Below are positions 12,451 through 37,461 of a stretch of 64,000 nt of DNA, in pieces; position 1 is the first letter of the stretch; each line of letters begins with the position of its first letter. The position numbers and the translations under genes are program-made. The notes under the pieces were generated by a model that was not told the DNA's origin, made no database searches, and saw only the letters and a program-made list of their open reading frames with translations. The DNA is from Microbacterium sp. (GTDB lineage: Bacteria > Actinomycetota > Actinomycetes > Actinomycetales > Microbacteriaceae), in NCBI RefSeq assembly GCF_017305435.1, contig NZ_JAFKIP010000005.1, positions 372,001 to 436,000 of the forward strand. The letters run 5' to 3'.

Positions 12451-12467
12451 CCCCCCCTCCGCCGAGG

Positions 12468-12588
12468 GTGCATTCGTTCCCGCCGGGAGTGCACTCGTTC
12501 CCGCCGGGGGTGCACTCGTTTGCGCCGGGGGTGCATTCGTTTGCGCCGAGGGTGCATTCGTTCCGGATCCGGGGTGCACTCGCATCGT
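12468..12588 (+). repeat. Left array: six 21-bp repeats
   Basis: The core GTGCA(C/T)TCG begins at 12468, 12489, 12510, 12531, 12552 and 12574, a period of 21, 21, 21, 21 and 22 bp. A typical unit is GTGCACTCGTTTGCGCCGGGG minus its last base. There are no variable spacers, so it is not CRISPR. The same core appears in inverted orientation on the far side of the next gene. Because 21 is a multiple of three, the array also reads as a seven-residue repeat in an open frame, which I regard as incidental. Confidence 0.9.
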
Positions 12589-12677
12589 CTTCTCCACAGC
12601 GCGCCGATCTGCGAGTCTGTCCACCGATCTCGCGTCGGCGTCTCTACCGGAGGTCGCGGCATCCCACCATCGGTGTC

Positions 12678-13628
12678 ATGGAATCGCACACTGAGGCGCG
12701 GCATGTCTACCCGCACCGTACGCTCAGCCGCCCACGGGGAGGAGCGAGTCCCTTGCGATACGGCGCCGCGGTCGCGACCACGCCGTGGGGGCTCGCCCAC
12801 GACGAGACGCGTCAACGGATGCGCGCACACGCCGTCGCAGCTCTCGCTCGCGGCGAGTGCTTCGCGTTCTCCGACATCACCGCGGCGGCCTTTCACGACA
12901 TCCCGCTGGTCGGTGTCGACGCCAGCCGCGTGCACACCACTCCCTTCAGCGACAACCCGTCGAAGACGCACCGCGACGTCGTGCGGCACAAGATCCCACT
13001 CCGCGCGCGTGATGTCACGGTCCGAGATGGGCTCTGGGTCACCTCGCTCGACCGCACTCTGTTCGATCTCGTTCGCAGGTTGCGATTCGAGCCTGCGCTC
13101 GCCGCCTTGTGCGCCGGATTGCACCAGTGTCGCGCCGGGAGCGCGGGCCGGGCAGAGGTGGACCGCGCCGCCGAGGCGCAACTGCGCGCACAGGTCGCCG
13201 AGCGTGTGGATGCCGCGGCCGGCAGCCGTGGCATCCACAACGCCCGCCTCGTGTTGGAGCTCGCGGACGGTCGGGTCGAATCACCCGGCGAGAGTCGGTC
13301 GCTGGCGCGCATGTGGGAGGCGCGCCTGCCGATTCCGGATCTCCAAGTGCCGGTTGAGACCGCCGAGGGGATCTACGTCCCGGACTTCTCCTGGCCGGAA
13401 CTGCGGATGTTCGGCGAGTTCGACGGCGAGGTCAAGAGGTTCGATCCCGCGATGGCGTCGGGGCGTACGCCGTTCCAGGTCTCGGAGGATCAGGCGCATC
13501 GTCGTCGTGCGGTCGAGCGAGCGACGGGGTGGCGGGGGATGCACTGGGGATGGGATGAGTCCGCCGACGCCGAAGTCTTCTGGGGAGTGCTCGTTGCGCA
13601 GGGGTGGAAGCCTCGTTGGCGGGTGTGA
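12678..13628 (+). CDS. AbiEi/DUF559-type nuclease-like protein inside repeat arrays
   Basis: A 316-residue protein of the actinobacterial AbiEi-like plus DUF559 type. The N-terminal two-thirds shows the usual pattern, with AFSDITAAAFHDIPLVG and, later, GLWVTSLDRTLFDLVRRL. The C-terminus has a PD-(D/E)xK-like block at about 235-253 (PDFSW...GEFDGEVK), the expected core of a Vsr-like endonuclease. Enzyme activity is inference from these motifs. The start is uncertain: ATG 12678 gives the family-like N-terminus but has no good ribosome binding site, and the frame is open back to 12411 through the repeat array. The stop codon TGA overlaps the first base pairs of the right array. The gene sits between the terminator of the giant gene and the S10 promoter, with no operon partner. 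Could be a repeat-associated selfish gene or a defence gene. Confidence 0.7.
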   Translation: MESHTEARHVYPHRTLSRPRGGASPLRYGAAVATTPWGLAHDETRQRMRAHAVAALARGECFAFSDITAAAFHDIPLVGVDASRVHTTPFSDNPSKTHRDVVRHKIPLRARDVTVRDGLWVTSLDRTLFDLVRRLRFEPALAALCAGLHQCRAGSAGRAEVDRAAEAQLRAQVAERVDAAAGSRGIHNARLVLELADGRVESPGESRSLARMWEARLPIPDLQVPVETAEGIYVPDFSWPELRMFGEFDGEVKRFDPAMASGRTPFQVSEDQAHRRRAVERATGWRGMHWGWDESADAEVFWGVLVAQGWKPRWRV

Positions 13629-13719
13629 GTGCACCTTCACGCCGAACGAGTGCACCTTCACGCCGAACGAGTGCACCTTCGCGCCGAACGAGTGCACCTT
13701 CGGGTGAAACGAAGACACC
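13627..13719 (+). repeat. Right array: four to five inverted 21-bp repeats
   Basis: GAGTGCACC begins at 13627, 13648, 13669 and 13690, exactly 21 bp apart, with a degenerate fifth copy (GAAGACACC) at 13711. A unit is GAGTGCACCTTCACGCCGAA plus one C. The reverse complement matches the left array over GTGCACTCGTT, so the two arrays form inverted brackets around the gene. The first copy overlaps the stop codon of the bracketed gene. Confidence 0.9.
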
Positions 13720-13752
13720 CCCGGGTGGGAGGGCGGCGCGACACGCCCGAGT

Positions 13753-13781
13753 TTGCGACACGCCCGGGCGACACGTAGACT
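13753..13781 (+). promoter_or_regulatory. S10 operon promoter
   Basis: TTGCGA (13753-13758) and TAGACT (13776-13781) are 17 bp apart. The short repeat GCGACACGCCCG occurs just before the -35 and again inside the spacer. Transcription would start near 13788, giving a leader of nearly 300 nt ahead of rpsJ. Confidence 0.7.
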
Positions 13782-13787
13782 AGTCAG

Positions 13788-14081
13788 GTTCCACATTCCT
13801 GCGTGCGCGCGACGTCAAGACGCGCGGCGTGCGGGATCACTGCCAGGGCAGTGCATAGGTCGGCGGGAATCCACGGGATTCCGGCGAGAGCCTAGGCCGC
13901 GGGCAGCAGAACGACACAATCCGATCCCCTCCCGAACAGGGATCCGTGCGCGTGCGCGCGGCGATCGGGCCTGACATCAGAACAGTGGTGCGCCTCGAAA
14001 GAGTAGTGCCCGGCGCAGATCCCTGTGCCATGTGCGTCCAATGCCCCCGAGGTACGACGCGAGAAAGAGAGTGAGCAGACA
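13788..14081 (+). promoter_or_regulatory. Long structured leader of the S10 operon
   Basis: This gene-free stretch between promoter and rpsJ has no convincing coding frame. It can form a 7-bp hairpin (13866-13872 with 13876-13882). A long-range 8-bp pairing is also possible between CAGGGATC (13937-13944) and GATCCCTG (14018-14025). S10 leaders are autoregulatory targets of L4 in Escherichia coli; whether this one is controlled in the same way is not known from sequence. Confidence 0.45.
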
Positions 14082-14390
14082 ATGGCGGGACAGAAGATCC
14101 GCATTCGCCTGAAGTCGTATGACCACGAGGTCATCGACACGTCGGCGCGCAAGATCGTCGACACGGTGACCCGCGCGGGCGCCACGGTCGTGGGCCCCGT
14201 GCCCCTTCCGACCGAGAAGAACGTCGTGTGCGTCATCCGGTCGCCCCACAAGTACAAGGACAGCCGCGAGCACTTCGAGATGCGCACCCACAAGCGCCTC
14301 ATCGACATCATCGACCCGACGCCCAAGGCCGTCGACTCGCTGATGCGTCTCGACCTCCCGGCCGACGTCAACATCGAGATCAAGCTCTGA
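14082..14390 (+). CDS. rpsJ: 30S ribosomal protein S10
   Basis: S10 is a 30S head protein that also serves with NusB in transcription antitermination in other bacteria. The 102-residue product starts [19 protein letters not shown] and carries the hallmark [17 protein letters not shown] near the C-terminus. ATG 14082 gives the standard N-terminus; the purine-rich GAAAGAGAGTGAG upstream is the likely ribosome binding region. The frame is open 19 codons further, but that extension is not family-like. It is first in a long co-directional operon and follows the long leader. Confidence 0.98.
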
Positions 14391-14400
14391 GGTCCCGGTC

Positions 14401-15060
14401 ATGGCACACATCAACGAAAAGGTTTCCAAGGGCCTGCTCGGCACCAAGCTGGGCATGACCCAGGTCTGGGACGAGAACGGCAAGCTCGTTCCCGTCACCG
14501 TGATCGAGGTCGCGCCCAACGTCGTCACGCAGGTGCGTACCCCCGAGCGCGACGGCTACAAGGCCGTCCAGATCGCGTACGGCCAGATCGACCCCCGCAA
14601 GGTCAACAAGCCCCTCACGGCCCACTTCGAGGCCGCGGGTGTGACCCCTCGCCGTCACCTCACCGAGGTGCGCACCGCGGATGCCGCTGACTACTCACTC
14701 GGTCAGGAGCTCACCGTGGACGGCACCTTCGAGGCCGGCCAGCTGGTCGACGTCGTCGGCACCAGCAAGGGCAAGGGCACCGCGGGTGTCATGAAGCGCC
14801 ACAACTTCAAGGGCGTCTCCGCCTCGCACGGTGCGCACCGCAACCACCGCAAGCCCGGTTCGATCGGCGCGTCGTCGACGCCGAGCCGCGTCTTCAAGGG
14901 CATGCGCATGGCCGGCCGTATGGGTGGCGAGCGCGTGACCGTCCTCAACCTCACGGTGCACGCCGTCGATGCCGAGAAGGGTCTGCTGCTCGTCAAGGGC
15001 GCCGTCCCCGGCGCGCGCGGCCGCATCGTCTACGTCCGCAACGCAGTGAAGGGTGCCTGA
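14401..15060 (+). CDS. rplC: 50S ribosomal protein L3
   Basis: L3 is an early-binding 23S rRNA protein whose extension reaches the peptidyl transferase centre. The 219-residue product has the N-terminal [17 protein letters not shown] and the extended-loop sequence [20 protein letters not shown], the loop that carries the modified glutamine/asparagine in some bacteria. It begins ten bases after the rpsJ stop and ends two bases before rplD. Length and motifs are ordinary for the family. Confidence 0.98.
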
Positions 15061-15062
15061 TC

Positions 15063-15737
15063 ATGGCTGACTCGACTCTCGCGCTCGACGTCCTGAAGGC
15101 CGACGGCAAGAAGGTCGGCTCCGTGGAGCTGCCCGCCGCCATCTTCGACGTCAAGACGAACATCCCCCTCATCCACCAGGTCGTCGTCGCGCAGCTCGCG
15201 GCGGCTCGCCAGGGCACCCACTCGACCAAGCGTCGCGGTGAGGTCTCCGGTGCCGGCCGCAAGCCCTTCAAGCAGAAGGGCACGGGTAACGCCCGTCAGG
15301 GCTCGATCCGCGCGCCGCATATGACCGGCGGTGGCATCGTGCACGGCCCGAAGCCGCGCGACTACTCGCAGCGCACCCCCAAGAAGATGATCGCCGCCGC
15401 GCTCCTGGGCGCGCTCAGCGACCGTGCTCGCGGCGGACGCCTCCACGTCGTCGACTCCTTCGGCATCGACGGTGCGCCGTCGACGAAGGCCGCGGCATCC
15501 GTGCTGTCGACCCTCGGCGCCGTGAAGAACGTCCTCGTGGTCATCGGCCGCGACGACGAGCTGACCCTCAAGAGCGTCCGCAACCTCGGCTACGTCCACG
15601 TGCTCGAGGTCGGCCAGCTCAACGCCTACGACGTGCTCGTCTCCGACGACATCGTCTTCACCAAGGCCGCCTACGACACCTTCGTCGCCGCGAAGTCGGA
15701 TGCCAAGGCTGCCGCCACCGAGGAGGTCTCGGCATGA
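15063..15737 (+). CDS. rplD: 50S ribosomal protein L4
   Basis: L4 binds 23S rRNA, lines the exit tunnel and in enteric bacteria represses its own operon through the S10 leader. The 224-residue protein has the tunnel loop [20 protein letters not shown] at about residues 64-83 and the downstream globular core with [19 protein letters not shown]. Its last four bases overlap the start of rplW (ATGA), which indicates translational coupling. The leader upstream of rpsJ is the obvious place to look for L4 autoregulation here. Confidence 0.98.
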
Positions 15738-16042
15738 CCGCGAACATCGCCCTGAACAAGGACCCGCGCGACATCATCCTGAAGCCGGTCGTCTCGGAGA
15801 AGAGCTACGGGCTCATCGACGAGGGCAAGTACACGTTCCTCGTGGACCCCCGCGCCTCGAAGACCGAGATCAAGCTCGCCATCGAGAAGATCTTCGGCGT
15901 CAAGGTCGCCTCGGTCAACACGCTCAACCGCGTCGGCAAGGCCCGTCGCACCCGCTTCGGCATCGGCAAGCGCAAGGACACCAAGCGCGCCATCGTCACG
16001 CTGAAGTCGGGCACCATCGACATCTTCACGGCCGTCGGCTGA
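15734..16042 (+). CDS. rplW: 50S ribosomal protein L23
   Basis: L23 sits at the exit of the peptide tunnel and is the docking site for trigger factor and the signal recognition particle. The 102-residue product shows [20 protein letters not shown] and the RNA-contacting loop [20 protein letters not shown]. The start overlaps the rplD stop as ATGA. Length is typical. Confidence 0.98.
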
Positions 16043-16067
16043 CCGCTGGGATAGAGGACTAGAGAAC

Positions 16068-16907
16068 ATGGCTATTCGCAAGTACAAGCCCACGACCCCC
16101 GGTCGTCGCGGTTCGTCGGTGGCCGACTTCGCCGAGATCACGCGATCGACGCCCGAGAAGTCGCTGCTGCGCCCGCTGTCGAAGACCGGTGGCCGCAACA
16201 ACCAGGGCCGCATCACGACGCGTCACATCGGTGGCGGTCACAAGCGTCAGTACCGCGTCATCGACTTCCGTCGCAATGACAAGGACGGCGTCAACGCCAA
16301 GGTCGCGCACATCGAGTACGACCCCAACCGCACCGCGCGCATCGCGCTGCTGCACTACTTCGACGGCGAGAAGCGCTACATCCTCGCGCCGAACAAGCTG
16401 GCGCAGGGCGACATCGTCGAGTCGGGTGCGAGCGCGGACATCAAGCCGGGCAACAACCTGCCGCTGAAGAACATCCCCACCGGTACCGTCATCCACGCGA
16501 TCGAGCTCCGCCCCGGCGGCGGCGCGAAGCTGGCGCGTTCGGCGGGTGTCTCGGTGCGTCTCGTCGCCAAGGACGGACCCTACGCGCAGCTGCGCCTGCC
16601 CTCGGGTGAGATCCGCAACGTCGACGCGCGCTGCCGCGCCACGATCGGCGAGGTCGGCAACGCCGAGCAGTCGAACATCAACTGGGGCAAGGCCGGCCGT
16701 ATGCGGTGGAAGGGCGTCCGCCCGACCGTCCGCGGTGTCGCGATGAACCCGGTCGACCACCCGCACGGTGGTGGTGAGGGTAAGACCTCCGGTGGTCGTC
16801 ACCCCGTCACTCCTTGGGGCCAGGCTGAGGGTCGCACCCGCCACGCCAACAAGGAAAGCGACAAGTACATCGTCCGTCGTCGCAACGCCGGCAAGAAGCG
16901 CAAGTAG
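16068..16907 (+). CDS. rplB: 50S ribosomal protein L2
   Basis: L2 is needed for subunit joining and peptidyl transferase activity. The 279-residue protein has [19 protein letters not shown] near residue 42 and the invariant [20 protein letters not shown], which contains the histidine equivalent to the functionally important His229. The basic C-terminus ends [14 protein letters not shown]. It is preceded by the binding site GGACTAGAGAA and follows rplW by 25 bases. Confidence 0.98.
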
Positions 16908-16919
16908 GAGTAGAGGAAG

Positions 16920-17201
16920 ATGCCTCGCAGCCTGAAGAAGGGCCCCTTCGTCGACGAGCACCTGCTCCGCAAGGTCGCCTCGCAGAACGAAGCCGGTACC
17001 AAGAACGTCATCAAGACCTGGTCGCGCCGTTCGATGATCATCCCCGCCATGCTGGGACACACCATCGCGGTGCACGACGGACGCAAGCACATCCCCGTGT
17101 TCGTGTCCGAGACGATGGTCGGCCACAAGCTGGGCGAGTTCGCGCCCACCCGCACCTTCCGCGGCCACGTGAAGGACGACAAGAAGGGCCGCCGCCGCTG
17201 A
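16920..17201 (+). CDS. rpsS: 30S ribosomal protein S19
   Basis: S19 lies in the 30S head next to S13 and contacts the A-site region. The 93-residue protein begins [18 protein letters not shown] after the initiator and contains [20 protein letters not shown] and [14 protein letters not shown], all standard S19 blocks. A TAGAGGAAG ribosome binding site precedes ATG 16920 closely. The gene lies between rplB and rplV, as in nearly all bacteria. Confidence 0.98.
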
Positions 17202-17238
17202 CGCGGGGGCGTTCCAGAGAGGACAGAGGAGGAGAGAC

Positions 17239-17634
17239 ATGGTGGATTCCATCGCACGCGTCAAGCACATTCGCGTGACCCCTCAGAAGGCTCGTCGTGT
17301 CGTCGCGCTCATCAAGGGCAAGCAGGCTCAGGAGGCTCTCGCCATCCTGAAGTTCGCCCCGCAGAGCGCCAGCGAGCCGATCTACAAGCTCGTCGAGTCC
17401 GCGGTCGCCAACGCGCGAGTGAAGGCCGACCGTGACGGCGAGTACCTGGACGAGCAGGACCTGTACGTGCGCAACGCGTACGTCGACGAGGGCACGACGC
17501 TCAAGCGTTTCCAGCCCCGCGCACAGGGTCGCGCCTTCCAGATCAAGAAGCGCACGAGCCACATCACCGTCGAGCTCGCGACCCCCGCGGTCGCCGAGAC
17601 GGCCGGTGCCACGACCAAGAAGGCGAGCAAGTAA
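17239..17634 (+). CDS. rplV: 50S ribosomal protein L22
   Basis: L22 contacts all 23S rRNA domains; its beta-hairpin narrows the exit tunnel and is a known site of macrolide-resistance changes. The 131-residue product begins [20 protein letters not shown] and has the hairpin sequence [21 protein letters not shown] short tail ([13 protein letters not shown]) extends past the family core. A strong GAGGAGAGA binding site precedes ATG 17239. Its TAA overlaps the ATG of rpsC by one base. Confidence 0.98.
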
Positions 17635-18395
17635 TGGGACAGAAGGTCAACCCGTACGGCTTCCGCCTCGGCATCACCACGGACCACGTGTCGCGTTGGT
17701 TCTCCGACTCGACCAAGCCGGGCCAGCGTTACGCCGACTACGTGGCCGAGGACATCAAGATCCGCAAGCTCCTGCAGACGCAGCTCGACCGCGCCGGTGT
17801 GTCCGGCATCGAGATCGAGCGCACGCGTGACCGCGTCCGTGTCGACATCCACACCGCCCGTCCGGGCATCGTGATCGGTCGCCGCGGCGCCGAGGCCGAG
17901 CGCATCCGTGCCGACCTCGAGAAGCTCACCGGCAAGCAGATCCAGCTGAACATCCTCGAGGTCAAGAACCCCGAGGCCGATGCTCAGCTGGTCGCGCAGG
18001 GCATCGCCGAGCAGCTCTCCGCTCGTGTGGCGTTCCGCCGCGCGATGCGCAAGGGTCTGCAGGGCGCCCAGCGCGCCGGTGCCAAGGGCATCCGCATCCA
18101 GGTCTCCGGTCGCCTCGGCGGCGCCGAGATGAGCCGCTCGGAGTTCTACCGCGACGGTCGTGTGCCCCTGCACACGCTGCGCGCGAACATCGACTACGGC
18201 TTCTACGAGGCCAAGACCACCTTCGGCCGCATCGGCGTGAAGGTCTGGATCTACAAGGGCGACCTCACGGCCAAGGAGCTCGCTCGCGAGCAGGCCAACG
18301 CCCCCAAGCCCCCGCGCGGTCGCGATGACCGCGGTGGCGACCGTCGTCGTGGCCCCCGCAACGAGGCCCCCGTCGCAGAAGGAGCGTCTGCCTGA
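17634..18395 (+). CDS. rpsC: 30S ribosomal protein S3
   Basis: S3 forms part of the mRNA entry channel and has helicase-like function there with S4 and S5. The 253-residue protein opens [20 protein letters not shown]. It has a KH domain with [18 protein letters not shown], then the C-terminal S3 domain with [20 protein letters not shown]. The C-terminal tail is rich in Arg, Gly and Asp ([15 protein letters not shown]) and longer than in enteric S3, which is common in actinobacteria. Starts and stops overlap the neighbouring genes by one base. Confidence 0.98.
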
Positions 18396-18814
18396 TGCTT
18401 ATTCCCCGCAAGGTCAAGTACCGCAAGCAGCACCACCCGGGTCGCTCCGGCGCTGCCACCGGTGGCACGAAGGTGTCGTTCGGTGAGTTCGGCATCCAGG
18501 CCCTGACGCCCGCTTACGTGACCAACCGTCAGATCGAGTCCGCTCGTATCGCGATGACGCGTCACATCAAGCGTGGCGGCAAGGTGTGGATCAACATCTA
18601 CCCCGACCGTCCGCTCACGAAGAAGCCGGCCGAAACCCGCATGGGTTCCGGTAAGGGTTCGCCGGAGTGGTGGGTCGCGAACGTCAAGCCCGGCCGCGTC
18701 CTCTTCGAGGTCGCCGGTGTCAACGAGGAACTCGCCCGCGAGGCCCTCACCCGGGCAATTCACAAGCTGCCGCTGAAGGCACGCATCATCAAGCGCGAGG
18801 AGGGCGACGCGTAA
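18395..18814 (+). CDS. rplP: 50S ribosomal protein L16
   Basis: L16 organises the A-site region of the 50S subunit. The 139-residue protein begins [19 protein letters not shown] and contains [19 protein letters not shown] and [20 protein letters not shown], both diagnostic. It overlaps rpsC (TGATG) and rpmC (TAATG), so the three genes are probably translationally coupled. Length is normal. Confidence 0.98.
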
Positions 18815-19131
18815 TGGCCGTCGGAACCAAGACGCTCGCACCGAGCGAGCTCGACACGTTCGAGGACCAGCGCCTCGTCGAGGAGCTGCGCAAGGCCAAG
18901 GAGGAGCTGTTCAACCTGCGCTTCCAGTCGGCCACCGGCCAGCTCGACAGCCACGGCCGCATCCGTGCGGTCAAGCGCGACATCGCGCGGCTCTACACCG
19001 TGATCCGTGAGCGCGAGCTCGGCATCCGTGCCACGCCCGCTCCCGCCGAGGTTGCACCCAAGGCGAAGAAGAAGGCGACGAAGAAGGCGGATGCCGCCGA
19101 CGACGCCGCTGCGAAGGAAGAGGCTGAGTGA
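18814..19131 (+). CDS. rpmC: 50S ribosomal protein L29 with basic/acidic tail
   Basis: L29 is a small helical hairpin near the exit tunnel. The family core is here at about residues 10-72, with [20 protein letters not shown] and [17 protein letters not shown]. The product has 105 residues, longer than the usual 65-75, because of a low-complexity Lys/Ala/Asp/Glu tail ([19 protein letters not shown]). I start at ATG 18814, which overlaps the rplP stop; the upstream open frame is a shadow of rplP. The next gene, rpsQ, overlaps by one base. Confidence 0.95.
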
Positions 19132-19457
19132 TGGCCACCAAGAAGACTGAAGAAGCAGTCGTCGAAGGTCACGAGCACGCGGCGCACGACGTCCGCGACG
19201 CCGAGGCTCGCGGGTACCGCAAGTCGCGTCGTGGCTACGTCGTCAGCGACAAGATGGACAAGACGATCGTCGTCGAGGTCGAGGACCGCGTGAAGCACCC
19301 GCTCTACGGCAAGGTCATCCGCCGCACGTCGAAGGTCAAGGCCCACGACGAGGCGAACACCGCCGGCATCGGCGACCTCGTGCTCATCAACGAGACCCGC
19401 CCGCTCAGCGCCACGAAGCGCTGGCGTCTGGTCGAGATCCTGGAGAAGGCCAAGTGA
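19131..19457 (+). CDS. rpsQ: 30S ribosomal protein S17
   Basis: S17 is an OB-fold protein that binds 16S rRNA early in 30S assembly. The core, starting [20 protein letters not shown], is preceded by about 29 residues rich in Glu, His and Ala that are not part of the classic domain. ATG 19131 overlaps the rpmC stop (TGATG); a GTG one codon earlier is possible but less likely. The gene ends with a GTGA overlap into rplN. It is 108 residues long. Confidence 0.96.
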
Positions 19458-19822
19458 TCCAGACAGAGTCCCGCCTCAAGGTCGCCGACAACACCGGCGC
19501 CAAGGAGCTGCTCACGATCCGCGTCCTCGGTGGGTCCAACCGCCGCTACGCGGGCCTGGGCGACATCATCGTGGCGACCGTCAAGGACGCGATCCCGGGC
19601 GGCAACGTCAAGAAGGGCGACGTCGTCAAGGCCGTCGTCGTCCGCACCAAGAAGCAGACCCGTCGTCCCGACGGTTCCTACATCAAGTTCGACGAGAACG
19701 CCGCCGTCATCCTGAAGAACGACGGGGAGCCCCGCGGCACCCGTATCTTCGGCCCGGTCGGTCGTGAGCTTCGCGACAAGAAGTTCATGAAGATCGTCTC
19801 GCTCGCACCGGAGGTGATCTGA
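19454..19822 (+). CDS. rplN: 50S ribosomal protein L14
   Basis: L14 binds 23S rRNA at the subunit interface and is a contact for the silencing factor RsfS. The 122-residue protein begins [20 protein letters not shown] and contains [20 protein letters not shown] and the closing [18 protein letters not shown]. The start codon is GTG, overlapping the rpsQ stop. It opens the spc-type part of the cluster without any gap, so S10 and spc genes appear to be one transcript. Confidence 0.98.
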
Positions 19823-19826
19823 CCTC

Positions 19827-20770: not shown

Positions 20771-20780
20771 TCCCGATACA

Positions 20781-20824
20781 TTTCGCCGCGTCGCGGCGAA
20801 ACACCCGACCACCGGCTGGTGGTC
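20781..20824 (+). other. Two hairpins in the rplE-rpsH gap, where rpsN is absent
   Basis: The gap 20771-20888 has no coding frame for S14. It holds two adjacent perfect hairpins. One has 9-bp arms at 20781-20789 and 20793-20801. The other has 7-bp arms at 20807-20813 and 20818-20824. They could be RNA processing sites, an attenuator or a regulatory site for the distal genes. A ribosome binding site (AAAGGAACC) and rpsH follow. Confidence 0.7.
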
Positions 20825-20888
20825 GCCACTCAAGAAGGTCGGCTGTCGTGTAACGGCATCCGAAACCACTGAACAAAGGAACCAAGAA

Positions 20889-21287
20889 ATGACGATGACA
20901 GACCCGGTCGCAGACATGCTGACCCGTCTGCGCAACGCGAACTCGGCGCACCACGACACCGTCGCGCTGCCGAGCTCCAAGCTCAAGACCAACATCGCCG
21001 AGATCCTCACGCAGGAGGGCTACATCTCCTCCTGGGAGGTCTCGGACGCCCGTGTGGGCCAGACCCTGACCCTGACGCTGAAGTACGGCCCGAACCGCGA
21101 GCGGTCGATCGCCGGCATCAAGCGCGTCTCGAAGCCGGGTCTGCGTGTCTACGCACGCTCGACCGAGATCCCCACGGTCCTCGGCGGCCTGGGCGTCGCG
21201 ATCCTGTCCACCTCCTCCGGTCTTCTCACCGACCGTCAGGCCGAGCAGAAGGGCGTGGGTGGGGAAGTCCTCGCCTACGTGTGGTGA
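20889..21287 (+). CDS. rpsH: 30S ribosomal protein S8
   Basis: S8 binds the central domain of 16S rRNA and in enteric bacteria represses the spc operon. The 132-residue protein begins [20 protein letters not shown] and ends with the conserved [21 protein letters not shown] start at ATG 20889, after AAAGGAACCAAGAA; a second ATG two codons later would also fit. The frame open upstream crosses the hairpin region and is not family-like. rplF follows after six bases. Confidence 0.97.
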
Positions 21288-21293
21288 TCTGAC

Positions 21294-21830
21294 ATGTCGC
21301 GTATCGGACGTCTGCCCATCACCATCCCCGCCGGCGTGACCGTTTCGGTCGACGGCCAGGATGTCGCGGTCAAGGGCCCCAAGGGCGAGCTCGCGCTCAC
21401 CGTGGCCAAGCCCATCGAGGTCAAGGTGGAGGAGGGCCAGGTCCTGGTCTCCCGCCCCGACGACGAGCGCGAGTCGCGCTCGCTCCACGGCCTGACCCGC
21501 ACCCTGATCAACAACGACATCATCGGCGTCACCGAGGGCTACACCAAGGGCCTCGAGGTCGTCGGCACGGGTTACCGCGTCGCGCAGAAGGGTGCGGCCG
21601 TCGAGTTCGCGCTCGGCTTCTCGCACCCGGTGCTCATCGAGCCCCCGGCCGGCATCACGCTGACCGTCGAGGGCAACAACAAGCTCACCGTGAGCGGCAT
21701 CTCCAAGCAGGCAGTGGGTGAGGTCGCGGCCAACATCCGCAAGATCCGCAAGCCCGAGCCCTACAAGGGCAAGGGTGTGCGGTACGCCGGCGAGGTCGTC
21801 CGCCGCAAGGCCGGAAAGAGTGGTAAGTAA
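21294..21830 (+). CDS. rplF: 50S ribosomal protein L6
   Basis: L6 lies near the L7/L12 stalk base and the factor-binding site. The 178-residue product has the two repeated domains of the family. It begins [20 protein letters not shown] and contains [20 protein letters not shown] and the C-terminal [18 protein letters not shown], a diagnostic signature. Spacing to rplR is two bases. Confidence 0.98.
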
Positions 21831-21832
21831 TC

Positions 21833-22192
21833 ATGGCTGTCACGTCAAAGTCCGTCGCGCGCTCGCGTCGTCACCTGCGTCTTCGCAAGAAGGTCGTGGG
21901 CACCGAGGTCCGCCCGCGTCTGGTCGTCACCCGTTCGGCCCGCCACGTCTTCGTGCAGGTCGTGGACGACAGCAAGGGCCACACCGTGGCCTCGGCATCC
22001 ACGCTCGAGAACGACCTGCGCACGTTCGACGGTGACAAGACCGCCAAGGCCCGCAAGGTCGGCGAGCTCGTCGCCGAGCGCGCGAAGGCCGCCGGCGTCT
22101 CGGACGTCGTGTTCGACCGCGGTGGCAACCGCTACGCGGGCCGTGTCGCTGCGATCGCCGAAGGCGCCCGCGAGGGAGGTCTGAACCTGTGA
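21833..22192 (+). CDS. rplR: 50S ribosomal protein L18
   Basis: L18 delivers 5S rRNA to the central protuberance with L5. The 119-residue protein has the basic N-terminus [19 protein letters not shown], then [20 protein letters not shown] and the closing [20 protein letters not shown]. The stop overlaps the GTG start of rpsE. It contains one of the many in-frame GGCATCC motifs (21994-22000). Confidence 0.98.
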
Positions 22193-22878
22193 GCGAGATC
22201 AAGGAGAACGAAGTGTCCACTGAGGCCACGGCTGCCGCTGAGGCGCCCGCTGCCGAGGCTCCCGCGGAGCGCGAGCGCGAGCCGCGTCGCGGTGGTCGTG
22301 AGCGCAGCCAGACTCGCGGTGACCGCGGGTCGCGCGACGCCGACAAGAGCCAGTTCCTGGAGCGCGTCGTCACAATCAACCGCGTGTCGAAGGTCGTCAA
22401 GGGCGGTCGCCGCTTCAGCTTCACGGCGCTCGTCGTCGTGGGTGACGGCAACGGTCTCGTGGGCGTCGGCTACGGCAAGGCGCGTGAGGTCCCTCTCGCC
22501 ATCTCGAAGGGTGTCGAAGAGGCCAAGCGCAACTTCTTCCGCGTTCCCCGTGCCGGCTCGACGATCCCCCACCCCGTCCAGGGTGAGGCCGCTGCCGGTG
22601 TGGTGCTCCTGCGCCCCGCCGCCGCCGGTACCGGTGTCATCGCCGGTGGTCCCGTCCGTGCCGTGCTCGAGTGCGCCGGCATCCACGATGTCCTCTCGAA
22701 GTCGCTCGGCTCGTCGAACACGATCAACATCGTGCACGCCACCGTCGCGGCTCTGAAGAGCCTCGAGGAGCCCCGCGCCGTCGCCGCCCGTCGTGGTCTC
22801 GACTTCGACCAGGTGGCTCCGGCCCGTCTGATCCGCGCCGAGGCCGAGGCCGCGAAGGCGCAGAAGGTTGGTGCCTGA
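22189..22878 (+). CDS. rpsE: 30S ribosomal protein S5
   Basis: S5 contributes to decoding accuracy and the mRNA entry channel. The double-stranded-RNA-binding part begins [20 protein letters not shown]; the C-terminal part contains [20 protein letters not shown]. An extended N-terminus of about 55 residues rich in Glu, Ala and Arg precedes it. GTG 22189 overlaps the rplR stop and has GGGAGG nine bases upstream. A second GTG at 22213 has its own AAGGAG site and is an equally good start, giving 221 residues. Which is used cannot be told from sequence. Confidence 0.95.
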
Positions 22879-23063
22879 TGGCTGCCCGTCTCAAGGTGAC
22901 CCAGGTCAAGTCCAAGGTGAGCGAGAAGCAGAACCAGCGTGACACGCTGCGTTCGCTCGGTCTGAAGCGGATCAACGACTCCGTCGTTCGTCCGGATGAC
23001 GCGCAGACGCGCGGCTACATCAAGACCGTCGCGCACCTCGTGAAGGTTGAGGAGATCGACTGA
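22878..23063 (+). CDS. rpmD: 50S ribosomal protein L30
   Basis: L30 is a small 50S protein. The 61-residue product reads [20 protein letters not shown] and then [20 protein letters not shown], the standard L30 pattern. ATG 22878 overlaps the rpsE stop (TGATG). The frame is open far upstream but that part is a shadow of rpsE. Its stop overlaps the ATG of rplO in the same way. Confidence 0.97.
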
Positions 23064-23644
23064 TGGCCGAGAAGGCTGAGAAGGTGACCGAAGAGGTCGC
23101 CGAGAAGAAGACCGCCGCGAAGAAGCCTGCTGCTGCGAAGAAGCCGGCTGCGGAGAAGAAGGCCCCTGCGAAGGCTGCCCCCAAGAAGGATGCCGAGGTC
23201 TCGCGCCCCGGCGTCCTGAAGGTGCACCACCTGCGTCCGGTCCCGGGTGCCAACACCGCCAAGACCCGCGTGGGTCGCGGTGAGGGCTCGAAGGGCAAGA
23301 CCGCCGGCCGTGGCACCAAGGGCACGAAGGCCCGCTACCAGGTCAAGGTCGGCTTCGAGGGTGGGCAGATGCCCCTCCACATGCGTACGCCGAAGCTGCG
23401 CGGGTTCAAGAACCCGTTCCGCGTCGAGTACCAGGTGGTCAACCTCGACAAGCTCGCGGAGCTCTACCCCAAGGGCGGTGACGTCACCGTCAGCGATCTC
23501 GTCGCGAAGGGCGCCGTCCGCAAGAACGAGAAGGTCAAGGTGCTCGGCACCGGCGACATCTCGGTCAAGCTGACCGTGTCGGTCGACAAGGTCTCGGGTT
23601 CGGCCGAGCAGAAGATCGTCGCCGCCGGCGGCTCGATCAAGTAA
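23063..23644 (+). CDS. rplO: 50S ribosomal protein L15 with Lys/Ala-rich N-terminus
   Basis: L15 is a late assembly protein of the 50S subunit. The family domain starts at about residue 50 ([20 protein letters not shown]), followed by [20 protein letters not shown] and the closing [14 protein letters not shown]. Ahead of it lies a 45-residue segment of repeated AAKKPA-type sequence, absent from enteric L15. Tails of the same composition occur on L29 and L17 in this window. It ends the ribosomal part of the operon; a strong hairpin separates it from secY. Confidence 0.97.
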
Positions 23645-23652
23645 GTCCACGG

Positions 23653-23703
23653 CAGGGGCCGGAGGGTCTCTCGACTCGGTCGAGAACAGTCCTCCGGCCC
23701 CTG
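23653..23703 (+). terminator. Branched hairpin between rplO and secY
   Basis: A 13-bp perfect G+C-rich outer stem (23653-23665 with 23691-23703) encloses an inner 7-bp stem (23669-23675 with 23679-23685). It begins eight bases after the rplO stop. The run that follows (TTGCCGTACTCTGG) is not a real U-tract. It may be a partial terminator that lowers secY-adk-map expression relative to the ribosomal genes. Confidence 0.7.
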
Positions 23704-23773
23704 TTGCCGTACTCTGGTAGGCGGTGTCCCTGCCTCAGGCGGCCGGATGCCGCCACACCTCTGGAGGAAATCC

Positions 23774-25102
23774 TTGTTCAGCGCCATCGCGCGGGTCTTC
23801 CGCACGCCGGATCTCCGGCGGAAGATCGCCTTCACTCTGGGCATCATCGCCATCTACCGTCTCGGCGCGCACGTCCCGACGCCGTTCGTGAGCTATCCGA
23901 ACGTCCAGGACTGTCTGCAGCAGACGGGGTCGGCCAGTGAGGGCCTGCTCTCGCTCGTCAACCTCTTCTCCGGCGGCGCCCTGCTGCAGCTGTCGATCTT
24001 CGCGCTCGGCGTCATGCCGTACATCACCGCGACGATCATCGTGCAGCTGCTGCGCGTCGTCATCCCGCACTTCGAGACGCTGTACAAGGAGGGCCAGGCC
24101 GGCCAGGCCAAGCTCACGCAGTACACGCGCTATCTCACGATCGCGCTGGCGCTCCTGCAGTCGACGACCCTCGTGACGGTCGCGCGGTCGGGGCAGCTCT
24201 TCGGCACGACGTCGATCGCGTCCTGCAACAGCCTCCTCACCAACGACGCGTGGTGGGCGCAGCTGCTCATGATCATCACGCTGACCGCCGGCACGGGCCT
24301 CATCATGTGGTTCGCCGAGCTCGTCACCGAGCGCGGCGTCGGCAACGGCATGTCGATCCTCATCTTCACCTCGATCGCCGCGACCTTCCCGGCCGCCATG
24401 TGGGCCATCGCCCAGGCGCGCAGCTTCGAGGTCTTCCTCCTGGTCCTCGCCGTCTCGATCGTCGTGGTCGCGCTCGTCGTGTTCGTCGAGCAGTCGCAGC
24501 GCCGGATCCCGGTGCAGTACGCGAAGCGCATGGTCGGTCGCCGGACGCTCGGCGGGACGAACACCTACATCCCGATCAAGGTCAACATGGCCGGCGTCGT
24601 GCCCGTCATCTTCGCGTCGTCGCTGCTGTACATCCCCGCGCTCATCGCGCAGTTCAACCAGACGCCGGATGCCAATGGCAACATCCCGGGCTGGGTGACG
24701 TGGATCCAGTCGTACCTGACGAAGGGCGATCACCCGCTATACATGCTGCTGTACTTCCTCCTCATCGTCGGGTTCACCTACTTCTACGTCGCGATCACGT
24801 TCAACCCGGTCGAGGTCGCCGACAACATGAAGAAGTACGGCGGCTTCATCCCCGGCATCCGTGCCGGCCGGCCGACCGCCGAGTACCTCGACTACGTGCT
24901 CACGCGTATCACGCTGCCGGGCTCGATCTACCTGGGTCTCATCGCCCTGTTGCCGCTCATCGCCCTCGCGACGGTCAGCGCCAACGCCAACTTCCCGTTC
25001 GGCGGCGCCTCGATCCTGATCATCGTCGGCGTGGGTCTCGAGACGGTGAAGCAGATCGACGCGCAGCTCCAGCAGCGTCACTACGAAGGGCTCCTGCGAT
25101 GA
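23774..25102 (+). CDS. secY: Protein translocase subunit SecY
   Basis: SecY is the membrane channel of the Sec pathway. The 442-residue protein shows ten hydrophobic segments. It has the N-terminal IARVFRTPDLRRKIAFTLGI, FSGGALLQLSIFALGVMPYI near the plug region, and the C-terminal cytoplasmic loop EVADNMKKYGGFIPGIRAG. I chose TTG 23774 because GGAGGAAA lies at 23763-23770 and the product then starts FSAIARVF, as in relatives. An ATG nine codons upstream (23747) lacks a binding site. It overlaps adk by four bases (ATGA). The window's exported and LPXTG proteins would use this channel. Confidence 0.95.
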   Translation: MFSAIARVFRTPDLRRKIAFTLGIIAIYRLGAHVPTPFVSYPNVQDCLQQTGSASEGLLSLVNLFSGGALLQLSIFALGVMPYITATIIVQLLRVVIPHFETLYKEGQAGQAKLTQYTRYLTIALALLQSTTLVTVARSGQLFGTTSIASCNSLLTNDAWWAQLLMIITLTAGTGLIMWFAELVTERGVGNGMSILIFTSIAATFPAAMWAIAQARSFEVFLLVLAVSIVVVALVVFVEQSQRRIPVQYAKRMVGRRTLGGTNTYIPIKVNMAGVVPVIFASSLLYIPALIAQFNQTPDANGNIPGWVTWIQSYLTKGDHPLYMLLYFLLIVGFTYFYVAITFNPVEVADNMKKYGGFIPGIRAGRPTAEYLDYVLTRITLPGSIYLGLIALLPLIALATVSANANFPFGGASILIIVGVGLETVKQIDAQLQQRHYEGLLR

Positions 25103-25686
25103 CCGCACCCCGTCTCCTCATCATCGGCCCGCAGGGCTCGGGCAAGGGCACTCAGGGGCAGCGGATCGCCGACGCGTTCCGCATCCCGGCCGTGTCGACG
25201 GGAGATGTGTTCCGGGCGAACGTCAAGGACGGCACGCCGCTCGGTCTCGAGGTGAAGGCGATCATCGATGCCGGCGACCTCGTGCCCGACGCGCTGACCG
25301 GCGCGATCGTGCGCGACCGCCTCGCGCAGGACGACGCGGCGGGCGGGTTCCTCCTCGACGGGTACCCCCGCAACCTCGGCCAGGTCGGCGACCTCGACGC
25401 ATTCCTGGGCGAGCGCGACGAGCCGCTCACGGCCGTCATCGAGCTGAGCGTCCCGCGTGACGAGTCGATCCGCCGCATCGCCCTCCGCGCGCGGGAGCAG
25501 GGCCGCGCGGACGACAACGACGAGTCGATCGCGAAGCGCCTGTCGATCTACGAGTCCGAGACCGCGCCGATCCTCGACGTCTACCGCGAGCGCGGCGTCG
25601 TTGACGAGATCGATGGCGTCGGCACGCTCGACGAGGTGTTCGAGCGCATCATCGTGGCCCTCGCGGCGCGCGGCATCGTCGCCTGA
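25099..25686 (+). CDS. adk: Adenylate kinase
   Basis: Converts ATP and AMP to two ADP. The Walker A loop is GPQGSGKGTQ at about residues 10-19; STGDVFRANVKDGTPLG and FLLDGYPRN form the AMP-binding and core regions. The 195-residue length and the short REQGRADDNDE segment show the short-LID form without a zinc finger. It overlaps secY (ATGA) and sits two bases before map, the conserved secY-adk-map order. Confidence 0.97.
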   Translation: MTAPRLLIIGPQGSGKGTQGQRIADAFRIPAVSTGDVFRANVKDGTPLGLEVKAIIDAGDLVPDALTGAIVRDRLAQDDAAGGFLLDGYPRNLGQVGDLDAFLGERDEPLTAVIELSVPRDESIRRIALRAREQGRADDNDESIAKRLSIYESETAPILDVYRERGVVDEIDGVGTLDEVFERIIVALAARGIVA

Positions 25687-25688
25687 CC

Positions 25689-26546
25689 GTGCCCTTCCGC
25701 CGCTCCCTGTACAAGACGCCCGCCCAGCTGCGGGCGATGGTCGAACCCGGCCTGATCACCGCGGCCGCGCTCGACGCGGTGCGTGCGCTGATCGCGCCGG
25801 GCGTCACGACGGAGGAGCTGGATGCCGCGGCATCCGCCGTCATCGTGGCACGCGGTGCGGAGTCGAACTTCCAGCTCGTGCGCGGCTATCGGCACACGAC
25901 GTGCGTGTCGGTGAACGACCAGGTGGTGCACGGCATCCCCGGCCCTCGCGTGCTCGAGGCGGGCGACATCGTGTCGATCGACGCCGGTGCCCAGTACCAG
26001 GGCTGGAACGGCGACTCGGCGATCACGGTCGTCGTCTCCGGTGACGCCGACGCGACGGCGGATGCCGACGTGCGTGCACGCCGTGAGCGTCTCTCCGAGG
26101 TGACACGCGGGTCCCTCTGGGCCGGCATCGCCGCGCTCGCGTCGGCGCGGCGCGTGGGTGAGGTCGGCGACGCCGTGCAGGGGTTCATCGAGCGGACCGA
26201 GGCGGCGGACGGCGCGGAGTACGGCATCCTGCGCGACTACGTCGGGCACGGCATCGGCCGCAAGATGCACGAGGGGCCGACGGTGTTCAACTACCGCGTC
26301 GCGGATCTCGGCGCCGAGGTGAAGCCTGGCCTGTGCCTCGCGATCGAGCCGATGGTGACGTCGGGCTCGGATGCGACGTTCATCGAGGACGACGATTGGA
26401 CCGTCACGACGGTCGACGGCAGCGACGGCGCCCATTGGGAGCACTCCGTGGCCGTGCACGCCGGCGGGATCTGGGTGCTCACCGCGCACGACGGCGGCAC
26501 CGCGGACCTCGCCCCCTACGGCGTCGTGCCGGTCCCGATCGCCTGA
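25689..26546 (+). CDS. map: Methionine aminopeptidase, type I
   Basis: Removes the initiator methionine from nascent proteins. The metal-binding set of the family is visible: the two aspartates in SIDAGAQYQGWNGDSAITVV, the histidine in GHGIGRKMHEGPTV, and the glutamates in AIEPMVTSG and HWEHSVAV. The 285-residue length fits a type I enzyme. The start is GTG 25689, two bases after the adk stop. In other actinobacteria infA follows map directly; here a repeat-bracketed nuclease-like gene and a DsbA-like gene lie between. Confidence 0.96.
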   Translation: MPFRRSLYKTPAQLRAMVEPGLITAAALDAVRALIAPGVTTEELDAAASAVIVARGAESNFQLVRGYRHTTCVSVNDQVVHGIPGPRVLEAGDIVSIDAGAQYQGWNGDSAITVVVSGDADATADADVRARRERLSEVTRGSLWAGIAALASARRVGEVGDAVQGFIERTEAADGAEYGILRDYVGHGIGRKMHEGPTVFNYRVADLGAEVKPGLCLAIEPMVTSGSDATFIEDDDWTVTTVDGSDGAHWEHSVAVHAGGIWVLTAHDGGTADLAPYGVVPVPIA

Positions 26547-26560
26547 GGCCGCGCGTGGCC

Positions 26561-26580
26561 GCAGAAGTGGCCACATCTGC
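26561..26580. repeat. Palindromic repeat, downstream copy
   Basis: GCAGAAGTGGCCACATCTGC is a 20-bp palindrome with a single mismatched pair. It lies 14 bases after map and about 80 bases beyond the 3' end of the nuclease-like gene at 26662-27621. Two related copies lie beyond that gene's other end. I noticed no other copy elsewhere in the window. Confidence 0.85.
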
Positions 26581-26661
26581 TGGGGGCGCCCGCGCCCAGC
26601 GACGATTCGTGACACGTCTGTCGCGTGCGGGCGGCATCGCGCCGCGCGGGGTAGGCGAGGC

Positions 26662-27621
26662 TCAGGAGAGCGCACGCGCGACGCGTGCTACGGCGAGCGC
26701 CGGATCCGGGTACAGCTCTCGCCGCGTGATCTCGACGACCGTGAAGCCCGCCTCGCGTGCGCGTTGCCTTTTCGCGATGTCGCGCGCCCAGGCATCCGGG
26801 GAGAGCCGGTGGTAGTCGCCCTGGTACTCGACGAGCACCGCGCGACCCGGAAAGCCGAGGTCGAAGATCCCGATGAGCGAGCCCGCTGAGTCGTAGACCG
26901 GAACGTCGAACTCCGGCTCGGGCAGGCTCGCCTCGACGAGCGCGAGCCACAGGTGCACCTCCGTGCGGCTGCGGGCGCCGGGGCGGATGAGTTCGAGCGC
27001 GCGTCGTGCCGCCGCCACGCCGGTCCGCGGCGATGCGGCAGTGGCTGCGCGCAGCTCGTCGAGGTTCGTGAGGGGCGGGGCGACGATCCGTCCGCCCGTG
27101 CCACGCGGCGGCGTGATCAGCAGCGACCCCACGGCGACGAGATCGCGCAGTGCGAGCGTCGGCGCGAGCAGGATCCACGTGGATGCCGGTGAGGTGAGCC
27201 TCATGCCCTCCTGCGTCCGCACGGAGACGAGGTGAGGCGCGAACTGTCGTCCGTGGACACCGACGCCGCGCGCAGCGCGGTGGGGCAGCAGCGTCCCGAC
27301 CTCGAGGAGGGGAGAGGGCTCGGGCAGAAGGGCGAGCCACCCGACCAGGGCAGACAGTCCCGTGAAGAAGGCGTGCGCCGGCATCCGCCGTCCGTAGGCA
27401 TCCATCAGTTCGCGATGCCGCGCCGCCGCGCCGTCGACCAGCGCGGTGCCGGCGCCGTCGACGGCCGCGCCCCGAACGGCCCGCCGCGTGCGCACACCCC
27501 AGAACGGCGCCTCGAGGTCGCGCCGCCGAAGCCGCCCCTCCGGCACCCCGGCCTCCCGTGCCTCCGCGACGGAGAACGAGCGCCCCAGGCCCGGAGGCAG
27601 CGGCGAGGGTGCGGGTGACAT
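26662..27621 (-). CDS. AbiEi/DUF559-type nuclease-like protein inside palindromic repeats
   Basis: A 319-residue protein with an N-terminal helix-turn-helix-like segment (SFSVAEAREAGVPEGRLRRR). An AbiEi-like middle follows, with HAFFTGLSALVGWLAL and, later, LTSPASTWILLAPTLALRDL. The C-terminal DUF559/Vsr-like nuclease domain (about 218-319) contains GIFDLGFPGRAVLVEYQGDY, in which D254 and E266 are candidate PD-(D/E)xK metal ligands. Nuclease activity is inferred from family, not shown. The start is uncertain: ATG 27621 has only a weak AAGG upstream, and ATG 27639 is possible. It runs against the ribosomal genes on both sides and splits the map-infA neighbourhood. Copies of a palindrome with GCAGAAG/CTTCTGC half-sites lie on both flanks. 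It has the same general build as the gene at 12678-13628 but is only distantly similar. Confidence 0.75.
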   Translation of the reverse strand: MSPAPSPLPPGLGRSFSVAEAREAGVPEGRLRRRDLEAPFWGVRTRRAVRGAAVDGAGTALVDGAAARHRELMDAYGRRMPAHAFFTGLSALVGWLALLPEPSPLLEVGTLLPHRAARGVGVHGRQFAPHLVSVRTQEGMRLTSPASTWILLAPTLALRDLVAVGSLLITPPRGTGGRIVAPPLTNLDELRAATAASPRTGVAAARRALELIRPGARSRTEVHLWLALVEASLPEPEFDVPVYDSAGSLIGIFDLGFPGRAVLVEYQGDYHRLSPDAWARDIAKRQRAREAGFTVVEITRRELYPDPALAVARVARALS

Positions 27622-27720
27622 GGACCGACCTTCCCGCATGCCGCCGCCCCGGCACGTGCCCCTCCCGGCATCTGTGGACAGATCCGCCACCTCCGCCCCT
27701 GGGGAGGAGTCGATGCCCCA

Positions 27721-27764
27721 CCCTCTCGTGCCACAGAAGTGGCCACTTCTGCAGCGCGAGAGGG
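27721..27764. repeat. 44-bp nested palindrome, upstream copy of the repeat
   Basis: The centre, CAGAAGTGGCCACTTCTG (27734-27751), is a perfect 18-bp palindrome and matches the copy at 26561-26580. It is nested inside a second pair of arms, CCCTCTCG (27721-27728) and CGAGAGGG (27757-27764), placed with exact symmetry. It lies about 100 bp upstream of the nuclease-like gene. Confidence 0.88.
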
Positions 27765-27773
27765 CGGGAGGCG

Positions 27774-27793
27774 GCAGAAGGGGACATATCTGC
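27774..27793. repeat. Third, degenerate copy of the palindromic repeat
   Basis: GCAGAAGGGGACATATCTGC matches the copy at 26561-26580 at 17 of 20 positions and keeps the GCAGAAG and ATCTGC ends. It starts ten bases after the 44-bp palindrome. The half-sites are conserved better than the centre, which suggests protein recognition of the arms or of a folded hairpin. Confidence 0.75.
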
Positions 27794-27920
27794 CGGGCCA
27801 GCCGCGTGCGGCCAGGCCCGCGCGGCGGCAGCCCCGAGGCGGTTCACGGGGGATGCATAGGCGGGCGTGAGGGAGAATGGATGCCGGGGCGGCGGGAGGC
27901 CGCCACGAGGAGAGGCAGCG

Positions 27921-37385: not shown

Positions 37386-37461
37386 GAGACGCAGAGCGGG
37401 CCTGAGAGCGGCAGAGCGGGCCTGCGAGCGGCAGAGCGGGCCGGAGAGCGCCCGAGACCGG
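37382..37461 (+). repeat. 20-bp tandem repeat between the lipoprotein genes
   Basis: CTGAGAGCGGCAGAGCGGGC-like units begin at 37382, 37402, 37422 and 37442, the last degenerate, with a partial fifth at 37462. The first unit overlaps the stop codon of the upstream gene. There is no evident hairpin or coding role. Confidence 0.7.

Follow-up and report, generated by a model that had tools for sequence, protein, structure and literature searches.

Two genes in a 64,000-nucleotide stretch of the genome of Microbacterium sp. (contig NZ_JAFKIP010000005.1, positions 372,001 to 436,000; hereafter, the window) each lie between copies of a short repeat, and this report concerns the relation between such genes and the repeats that bracket them. 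We refer to the two as gene A and gene B. An alignment of their proteins covers 85 residues at 32% (E 2e-6), in keeping with the distant similarity recorded in a first-pass annotation of the window. The two units are laid out as follows.

Gene bracketing in the window

12459..12582, + strand: left array of gene A, aimed at the gene and made up of about five GTGCAYTCGTT units of 21 bp and a sixth, degenerate one
12590..12598 and 12617..12625, + strand: DnaA-box-like words TTCTCCACA and CTGTCCACC, 27 nt apart, between the left array and gene A
12678..13628, + strand: gene A, 316 amino acids, with an AbiEi-like N-terminal region and a divergent Vsr/DUF559-type nuclease domain
13627..13701, - strand: right array of gene A, in which the 21-bp unit recurs 3.6 times, inverted
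26561..26580: 20-bp palindrome GCAGAAGTGGCCACATCTGC, past the 3' end of gene B
26662..27621, - strand: gene B, 319 amino acids, with an MTES_1575/DUF559-type nuclease domain at residues 261-318
27673..27681 and 27700..27708, - strand: DnaA-box-like word CTGTCCACA and looser word TCCTCCCCA, between gene B and its upstream palindrome
27733..27752: 20-bp palindrome ACAGAAGTGGCCACTTCTGC, ahead of the 5' end of gene B
27774..27797: degenerate third copy of the gene B palindrome, GCAGAAGGGGACATATCTGC, recognized by eye

The two arrays of gene A are convergent tandem arrays that face each other. The word GTGCACTCGTT (at most one mismatch) has eight matches in the window, five on the + strand to the left of gene A (12468-12562) and three on the - strand to its right (13645-13697), with none in the window outside the gene A flanks. 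Shuffling the window gave a mean of 1.43 matches, and eight were reached in 0/100 shuffles. Gene B is bracketed by a palindrome of which GCAGAAGTGGCCAC is one half; five matches were observed to this repeat against a mean of 0.57 in shuffled sequence, and again five were reached in 0/100 shuffles. Each gene is thus bracketed by a repeat of its own, as the first-pass annotation had proposed. Its statement that these repeats are not seen elsewhere in the window is correct, the sole other match to the gene B repeat lying at 37841 with two mismatches; the genome, however, does hold copies elsewhere. It had also pointed out that both units flank the ribosomal supercluster. This is true but incidental, as the family occupies seven other places in the genome.

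Across the genome the gene A word (at most one mismatch) has 81 matches, compared with 38 for a reversed control; its distinctive feature is the grouping into 21-bp arrays. The gene B half-site AGAAGTGGCCAC has 10 matches in the whole 3.5-Mb genome at the same tolerance, compared with 44 for a reversed, non-palindromic control word. Six of the 10 form palindromes at three places, two of which bracket gene B, and the other four are single matches elsewhere.

Paired flanks across the genus and the class

Protein searches of the source genome found seven members of the family beyond genes A and B, nine in total. Two are broken: L051 (C6:146k) is split over two frames and L056 (C6:237k) carries an inner TAG. 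A further weak match at C6:251.9k (E 0.017) has no paired repeat and was not counted. When 450 bp were read on each side, the members displayed matching, mostly hairpin-like repeats with a sequence particular to each; at C4:360k the downstream copy has decayed, and its match was recognized by eye. We scored each locus by the best local alignment between its upstream and its downstream flank. Seven of the nine scored at least 36 and six at least 40, with gene B at 37 and the weakest scores at C4:360k (32) and C6:146k (29).

Does the pairing extend beyond this genome? A profile built from the seven intact members matched all 39 genus genomes tried (39/39), and across the class it matched 304/394 genomes from 115/137 genera at E<=1e-8 (about five candidates scored per genome). 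In the genus Microbacterium, 139 loci from 67 genomes were scored: 116 reached 31, 110 reached 36, and 106 reached 40. Leaving out the nine loci of the source genome, 100/130 scored at least 40. At the same three thresholds, the 32 loci sampled outside the bacterial family, which represent 16 other families, gave 26, 22, and 21, and another 16 from within it (nine in Microbacterium, seven in two other genera) gave 14, 14, and 13. Most of the sampled homologues carry gene-specific flanking repeats, as had been predicted. Swapped pairs of unrelated loci, by comparison, reached 31 in 6.5%, 36 in 2.0%, and 40 in 0.95% of cases. TetR genes of the same genus served as a second control: at 28 usable loci (30 fetched, two clipped ones left out), 27 scored 19-28 and one scored 44. 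Chance as the source of matched flanks is ruled out by these two controls.

The 139 loci derive from 142, comprising 98 initial loci (nine from the source genome), 20 of 24 from a further search, and 24 from gene A relatives; three lacked a full flank. For the gene A relatives, 27 of 30 loci were read (two were clipped by contig ends and one was gene A itself), and three duplicates were merged. Genus loci were taken high-scoring first among the matches listed, with some near contig ends left out. Lower-scoring profile matches were mostly left out; 19 were taken, and 18 of these scored at least 40. M. flavum locus L260, very likely from the same species as genome G081, was also left out. The 32 loci from outside the family and the 16 further ones within it are no random sample: 20 of the 32 were picked to spread over families, and the others were the best-scoring matches. 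In a separate contig collection the profile search found no conserved stretch, and the L055 protein found one relative, from M. flavum. The array pattern had 0 matches there, which says little, as three genus genomes do hold arrays.

The repeats themselves have some common features. Tandem spacing was seen in 114/384 flanks, compared with 3/36 for TetR, mostly at 19-21 nt (42 flanks) or 40-42 nt (19 flanks). By eye, GATCATG is common to the repeats of loci from at least four other families.

Perhaps the genes have simply settled in repeat-rich intergenic DNA, or slippage or gene conversion homogenizes whatever repeats lie nearby? Array unit number does vary between the close relatives G224 and G233, and genomes that share a repeat mostly do so at orthologous sites, both of which suit a passive origin. 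However, 27/28 TetR genes of the genus have no matching flanks, the rule holds for loci in 16 other families, and chance settling would not give privately matched repeats on both sides. We consider a passive origin very improbable.

Repeat type and protein similarity

We compared repeat similarity (score of at least 36) with protein identity in pairs of loci from different genomes. Similar repeats were found in 97% of pairs above 70% protein identity (n=30), in 53% at 60-70% (n=19), in 16% at 50-60% (n=154), and in 0-2% in every lower bin. As the first-pass annotation expected, repeat type tracks protein similarity. But 48 of the 49 pairs with at least 60% identity are orthologues at one site, so that shared descent of the locus may explain the trend; for this reason, coevolution and shared descent are inseparable here.

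Same-site orthologues at 40-50% identity (n=155) share a repeat in only 6% of cases, yet the two flanks of each locus match, a match that comes by selection, since these loci were entered only at a flank score of at least 31. For both flanks to change in concert, something must homogenize them or a single binder must act on both. Relatives of gene A, mostly located 12-13 kb from map as in the window, had flanks that were alike (at least 40) at 19 of 27 loci and that differed between genomes.

Repeat copies away from the genes

Are the repeats confined to the flanks of their genes? Solo copies rule this out. A-type arrays occur at six other places in the source genome; five are in both orientations, facing, and the array in gcvP is in one orientation. 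In treY (TIGR02401; L031:1376-1841, C3:295.4k), A-type units form in-frame net insertions of 51 and 60 nt that bracket about 370 bp of the gene, a layout like that around gene A, with 0 gaps between them. The treY gene of the related genome G081 is without either insertion. In gcvP (TIGR00461; L034:1726-1799, C6:234.9k), four A-type units encode three GAFVP heptapeptides and a remnant, in frame; a solved but not close relative has about 11 fewer residues at the repeat. At the C3:329k solo site, G081 lacks the array but also lacks the neighboring open frame.

For the other repeat types, 20 pieces of 20 kb each (400 kb, 11.4% of the genome) contained four solo copies of the repeats of three other members. 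None of the 20 pieces held a family gene (tblastn, E<=1e-3). Reversed-pattern controls gave 0 matches for the long L052 and L055 patterns. The short L054 pattern gave 7 matches against 10 loose ones in the reversed control, and the evidence in that case is the two hairpin-like copies that were read.

Strict A-type arrays were found in 3/366 genus genomes, and the reversed control gave 0. All three are among the eight genomes whose best gene A match is at least 48% identical, for which the chance value is 7e-6, a figure that treats genomes as independent although G224 and G233 are close relatives, and that was obtained with six candidates scored per genome. G224 and G233 (91% over 6 kb; L296, L297) have the same solo array site with differing numbers of the 21-bp unit.

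Cassette turnover at one site

Gene B lies near two genes that we take, from their translations, to be map and dsbA. Matches to map were obtained in 37 genus genomes and 30 loci were read. At seven of these, a family gene with repeats directly follows map. The seven occupied loci include both orientations and at least three repeat types, and a dsbA-like gene was reached behind the cassette in five. The other 23 of the 30 loci have no family gene between map and dsbA, and three of them have a member just past dsbA. We also read the gene B site in 10 more close relatives. In five it is empty, the gene B cassette being replaced by 21-55 bp, and in three it holds other members, two with GAGCCGC-type repeats and one with a fourth type, GCGAGACGGCA. 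Of the remaining two, one has a member whose position relative to dsbA is ambiguous and one has 278 bp without a member. We conclude that the gene B site is empty in most relatives and is filled by other gene-plus-repeat cassettes in some.

Empty and occupied alleles at one site are what a free-standing homing nuclease would produce if it cut an empty allele, for instance at the 3' end of map, and repair then copied the cassette in; the repeats would be by-products or recombination aids. The weak resemblance of the nuclease domain to the catalytic domain of I-Bth0305I (see below) would suit such an enzyme. However, cassettes with unrelated repeats share the map site and the nine members of one genome sit at different places, so that no single target is apparent. 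Gene-free solo repeats would also be unexpected. Homing is, in our view, an improbable explanation of the cassettes.

The gene A site could be compared with G081, and no clean empty site was seen: homology begins just right of the array, and left of the array there is no match in the G081 stretches fetched. To the left of gene A lies a 3374-amino-acid open frame (window 2271-12395) that ends with a hydrophobic stretch and an RRRRETGTL tail; the 3' end of this frame has no counterpart in the same G081 stretches. Elsewhere in the window, at 37382-37470, the 3' end of an open frame repeats a 20-bp unit, CTGAGAGCGGCAGAGCGGGC, 4.4 times in tandem, and no family gene was noticed beside it. A phage or plasmid origin of gene B was considered and is unsupported: there was no phage record, and the plasmid records were three from Arthrobacter (0.75-1.35 Mb).

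The protein and an upstream DnaA-box-like word

In a Pfam scan of 103 members (E<=0.01), MTES_1575 matched 72 and DUF559 matched 56, several of them below Pfam's own cut-off; the gene B domain (E 5e-4) is below it as well. The two commonest PADLOC AbiEi models each matched 60/103 members, and in six proteins examined in detail the best AbiEi stretches fall between residues 8 and 194. Gene A matches an AbiEi model at 1.6e-8 and, taken alone, has no Pfam match; gene B has no match to the PADLOC AbiEi models. With the family profile, the DUF559-like endonuclease 3hrl is matched at E 1.1e-6, and there is a weak match (0.018) to 3r3p, the homing endonuclease I-Bth0305I.

Several positions are conserved among the 103 members: D254 (96 D, 7 E), E265 (99), G268 (103), and H271 (87, with K in 16). 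Position 267 is D in 54, E in 36, and Q in 5. Gene A has a D..E.D motif with K at 271, and gene B has Q at 267. Domain similarity and the catalytic residues (D254, E265, D/E267, H271) place the family in the PD-(D/E)XK Vsr/DUF559/MTES_1575 group as a predicted nuclease. An AlphaFold2 model made with three sequences was poor, with a mean predicted local distance difference test score (pLDDT) of 46.6; residues from about 220 to 318 were mostly above 50, and only this C-terminal part is usable. Its top three fold matches were mitoribosome chains with root-mean-square deviations of 18-21 (E 0.004-0.07) and are surely spurious. The later candidate matches to the predicted fold were weak: PvuRts1I (0.13), I-Bth0305I (0.37), and TnsA (1.0).

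A second feature lies upstream of the genes. The word TT[AG]TCCACA is DnaA-box-like by the known consensus. With at most one mismatch, it occurs within 245 nt upstream of 83/193 members, compared with 5.9 in shuffles; 20 of the upstream matches are exactly TTATCCACA, and the median position is 69 nt before the profile start. The word is present in 6/191 downstream flanks and in 0/18 TetR upstream regions (TetR counts for motif, hairpin, and self-inversion refer to an 18-gene set, minus-strand loci having been dropped or misread). In loci with paired repeats, 69 of 72 word matches fall between the upstream repeat and the gene. Looser DnaA-box-like words form a pair 15-45 nt apart in 33/193 members, and 21 pairs are at exactly 27 nt. 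In gene A, the second word of the pair, CTGTCCACC, has two mismatches to the pattern and was not counted in the motif tally. On the strength of the consensus, DnaA may bind the upstream word.

AbiEi antitoxins repress their operons through inverted repeats. We wondered if the repeats might be operators, two-way terminators, or both: the AbiEi-like region would repress its own gene via the upstream copy, the downstream copy would end transcription, and the copies would match since the same protein binds both. The AbiEi-like N-terminal region is there, and the known mode of AbiEi repression provides a precedent. Self-inverted flanks (at least 40) are common, upstream at 132/190 and downstream at 104/190 loci, compared with 5/18 and 3/18 for TetR. 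Five of six folded repeat sequences gave z values of -3.5 to -10, and convergent open frames enclose at least two of the solo arrays. However, regulation or insulation leaves unexplained the solo copies and in-frame treY and gcvP insertions, the nuclease domain with its conserved catalytic residues, and the turnover of cassettes at one site, and the gene B palindrome is a weak hairpin (z -1.3). We regard this explanation as unlikely, if the strongest we have met among those set out so far.

A probable nuclease-repeat system with REP/RAYT-like logic

What, then, might the genes and their repeats be doing together? The explanation that we judge probable is that gene and bracketing repeats form a REP/RAYT-like nuclease-repeat system built on an unrelated enzyme. 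Each gene would encode a predicted DNA-binding nuclease whose cognate target is the bracketing repeat, and the gene with its two repeat clusters would make up a small cassette, the repeats existing also as solo copies elsewhere. The protein would bind its repeat and nick or cut it, perhaps on a hairpin or an inverted pair in single-stranded DNA at replication; a single-stranded target at replication would be in line with the upstream DnaA-box-like word. Repair or copying at the cut would then homogenize and spread the repeats. We see protein and repeat as enzyme and substrate because this is the simplest way to account for a conserved nuclease with private repeats on either side of its gene, for the solo copies, and for flanks that change in concert; the repeat would be the recognition site of the linked protein.

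A broader version seems to us quite possible, though we advance it tentatively: that a class-wide counterpart of REP/RAYT evolved independently in the Actinomycetes, in which AbiEi-like Vsr-type nucleases, with expression tied to DnaA by way of the conserved upstream box, would each recognize a hairpin or inverted 21-bp array of their own, cut it during replication, and in this way copy repeats to their own flanks and to other loci, coding genes included.

The REP/REPIN repeats with their RAYTs (REPtrons) are the closest parallel. In the sections of PMC3116915 and PMC3733652 available to us, a nuclease gene is flanked by its own palindromic repeat family, distinct repeat flavors lie beside distinct paralogues, and solo inverted doublets or hairpins occur elsewhere, all as described here. 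The RAYT-REPIN relation is thought, in the part of PMC3116915 available, to consist of binding, nicking or cutting of the repeat, and then copying. Like RAYT genes, most of the sampled genes stand between copies of a repeat of their own (106/139 loci in the genus and 21/32 outside the bacterial family). RAYT-linked repeats are also dispersed, usually as inverted doublets, and here too copies occur elsewhere, at low number, with both orientations present at five of the six A-type sites. However, RAYTs are HUH/Y1 tyrosine transposases and the present family is a Vsr/DUF559-type enzyme. None of the seven Pfam families matched in the 103 members (E<=0.01), MTES_1575, DUF559, and AbiEi among them, is a transposase domain. 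We do not class the family as RAYT because it has no tyrosine transposase domain. It differs further in copy numbers that look far lower, and in the DnaA-box-like word inside many cassettes. TIRYTs and TIRtrons, as outlined in part of PMC3733652, are likewise single nuclease genes between inverted repeats, some in dispersed families, but are tyrosine transposases.

Several results weigh against a REP/RAYT-like nuclease-repeat system. The first group concerns the pairing. Thirty-three of the 139 genus members score below 40, and some high flank scores rest on GC-rich, low-complexity DNA (e.g., L247 and L314). Among the seven closest gene A relatives (at least 48% identity), only three have a matching pair (G182, G275, and G346); in G224, G233, and G114 the array is only downstream of the gene A relative, while G118 lacks a pair. 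No gene A homologue stands within 1.5 kb of the strict arrays in G224 and G233, and in these genomes the repeats beside their gene A orthologue are related, not identical, to those arrays. The same-site bias of close pairs means that cassettes may be mostly inherited. Whole-flank similarity between orthologues, with conserved neighboring DNA included, often exceeds the match within a locus, and the within/between comparison on whole flanks is uninformative.

The second group concerns dispersal. Six of the nine repeat types have no clear solo copy in the 400-kb sample. Dispersed copies in the G424 sample are few (4 sites in 400 kb), below REPIN numbers, and the B type, with one solo palindrome in the genome, is likewise low in copy number by that standard. 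At one site, the source genome and G081 both have a further L055-type solo copy. Inspection by eye showed no target duplication at the map site. Binding, cutting, and movement of the predicted system are, moreover, inferred.

Other known systems and novelty

Vsr-like homing endonucleases (I-Bth0305I) have a related catalytic domain, with both matches weak. The present family differs in its long AbiEi-like N-terminal region and private flanking repeats, and no intron or intein was noticed. AbiEi antitoxins of the type IV toxin-antitoxin system AbiE share the AbiEi-type N-terminal region, to which a nuclease domain is fused here. Unlike AbiE, the window genes stand single between other genes; no AbiEii gene was noticed beside them, and no model-based search was made. 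The map-site cassettes similarly have one family gene after map and then, where reached, the dsbA-like gene, neighbors that were not scanned with an AbiEii model.

Rickettsia palindromic elements (RPEs) are short repeats able to sit in frame within coding genes, much like the A-type units in treY and gcvP. We know of no nuclease gene associated with RPEs. They are mentioned in the part of PMC3733652 available to us. The C-terminal domain of the family has also been described, as the MTES_1575 Vsr-type restriction endonuclease domain named from Microbacterium testaceum (PMC3710099). In the portion of that paper available, the domain is within a large helicase-HEPN fusion and repeats go unmentioned.

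Among the papers listed by full-text searches of an open-access library, a scope that leaves out most subscription journals and all bioRxiv preprints, we found no description of such nuclease-repeat pairs. The 16 papers there that name DUF559 or MTES_1575 included no title on flanking repeats, and PMC3733652 contains no words beginning actinobac, Streptomyces, Mycobacter, or Nocardi. We conclude that the logic of the arrangement is known already, but not with this enzyme, in this host group, or with a DnaA-box-like part.

If a REP/RAYT-like nuclease-repeat system is indeed at work, a large protein family with poor annotation (matched in 304/394 class genomes) would gain both a function and a natural substrate. 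The REP/RAYT way of life would have arisen more than once, with unrelated enzymes, and repeat mobility would here be driven by a restriction-type nuclease and not an HUH transposase. Genomes with several members would provide several natural protein-target pairs, and a protein-repeat code might be readable from sequence. The system could also account for odd hairpins in actinobacterial genes and for heptapeptide repeats that such genes carry in frame.

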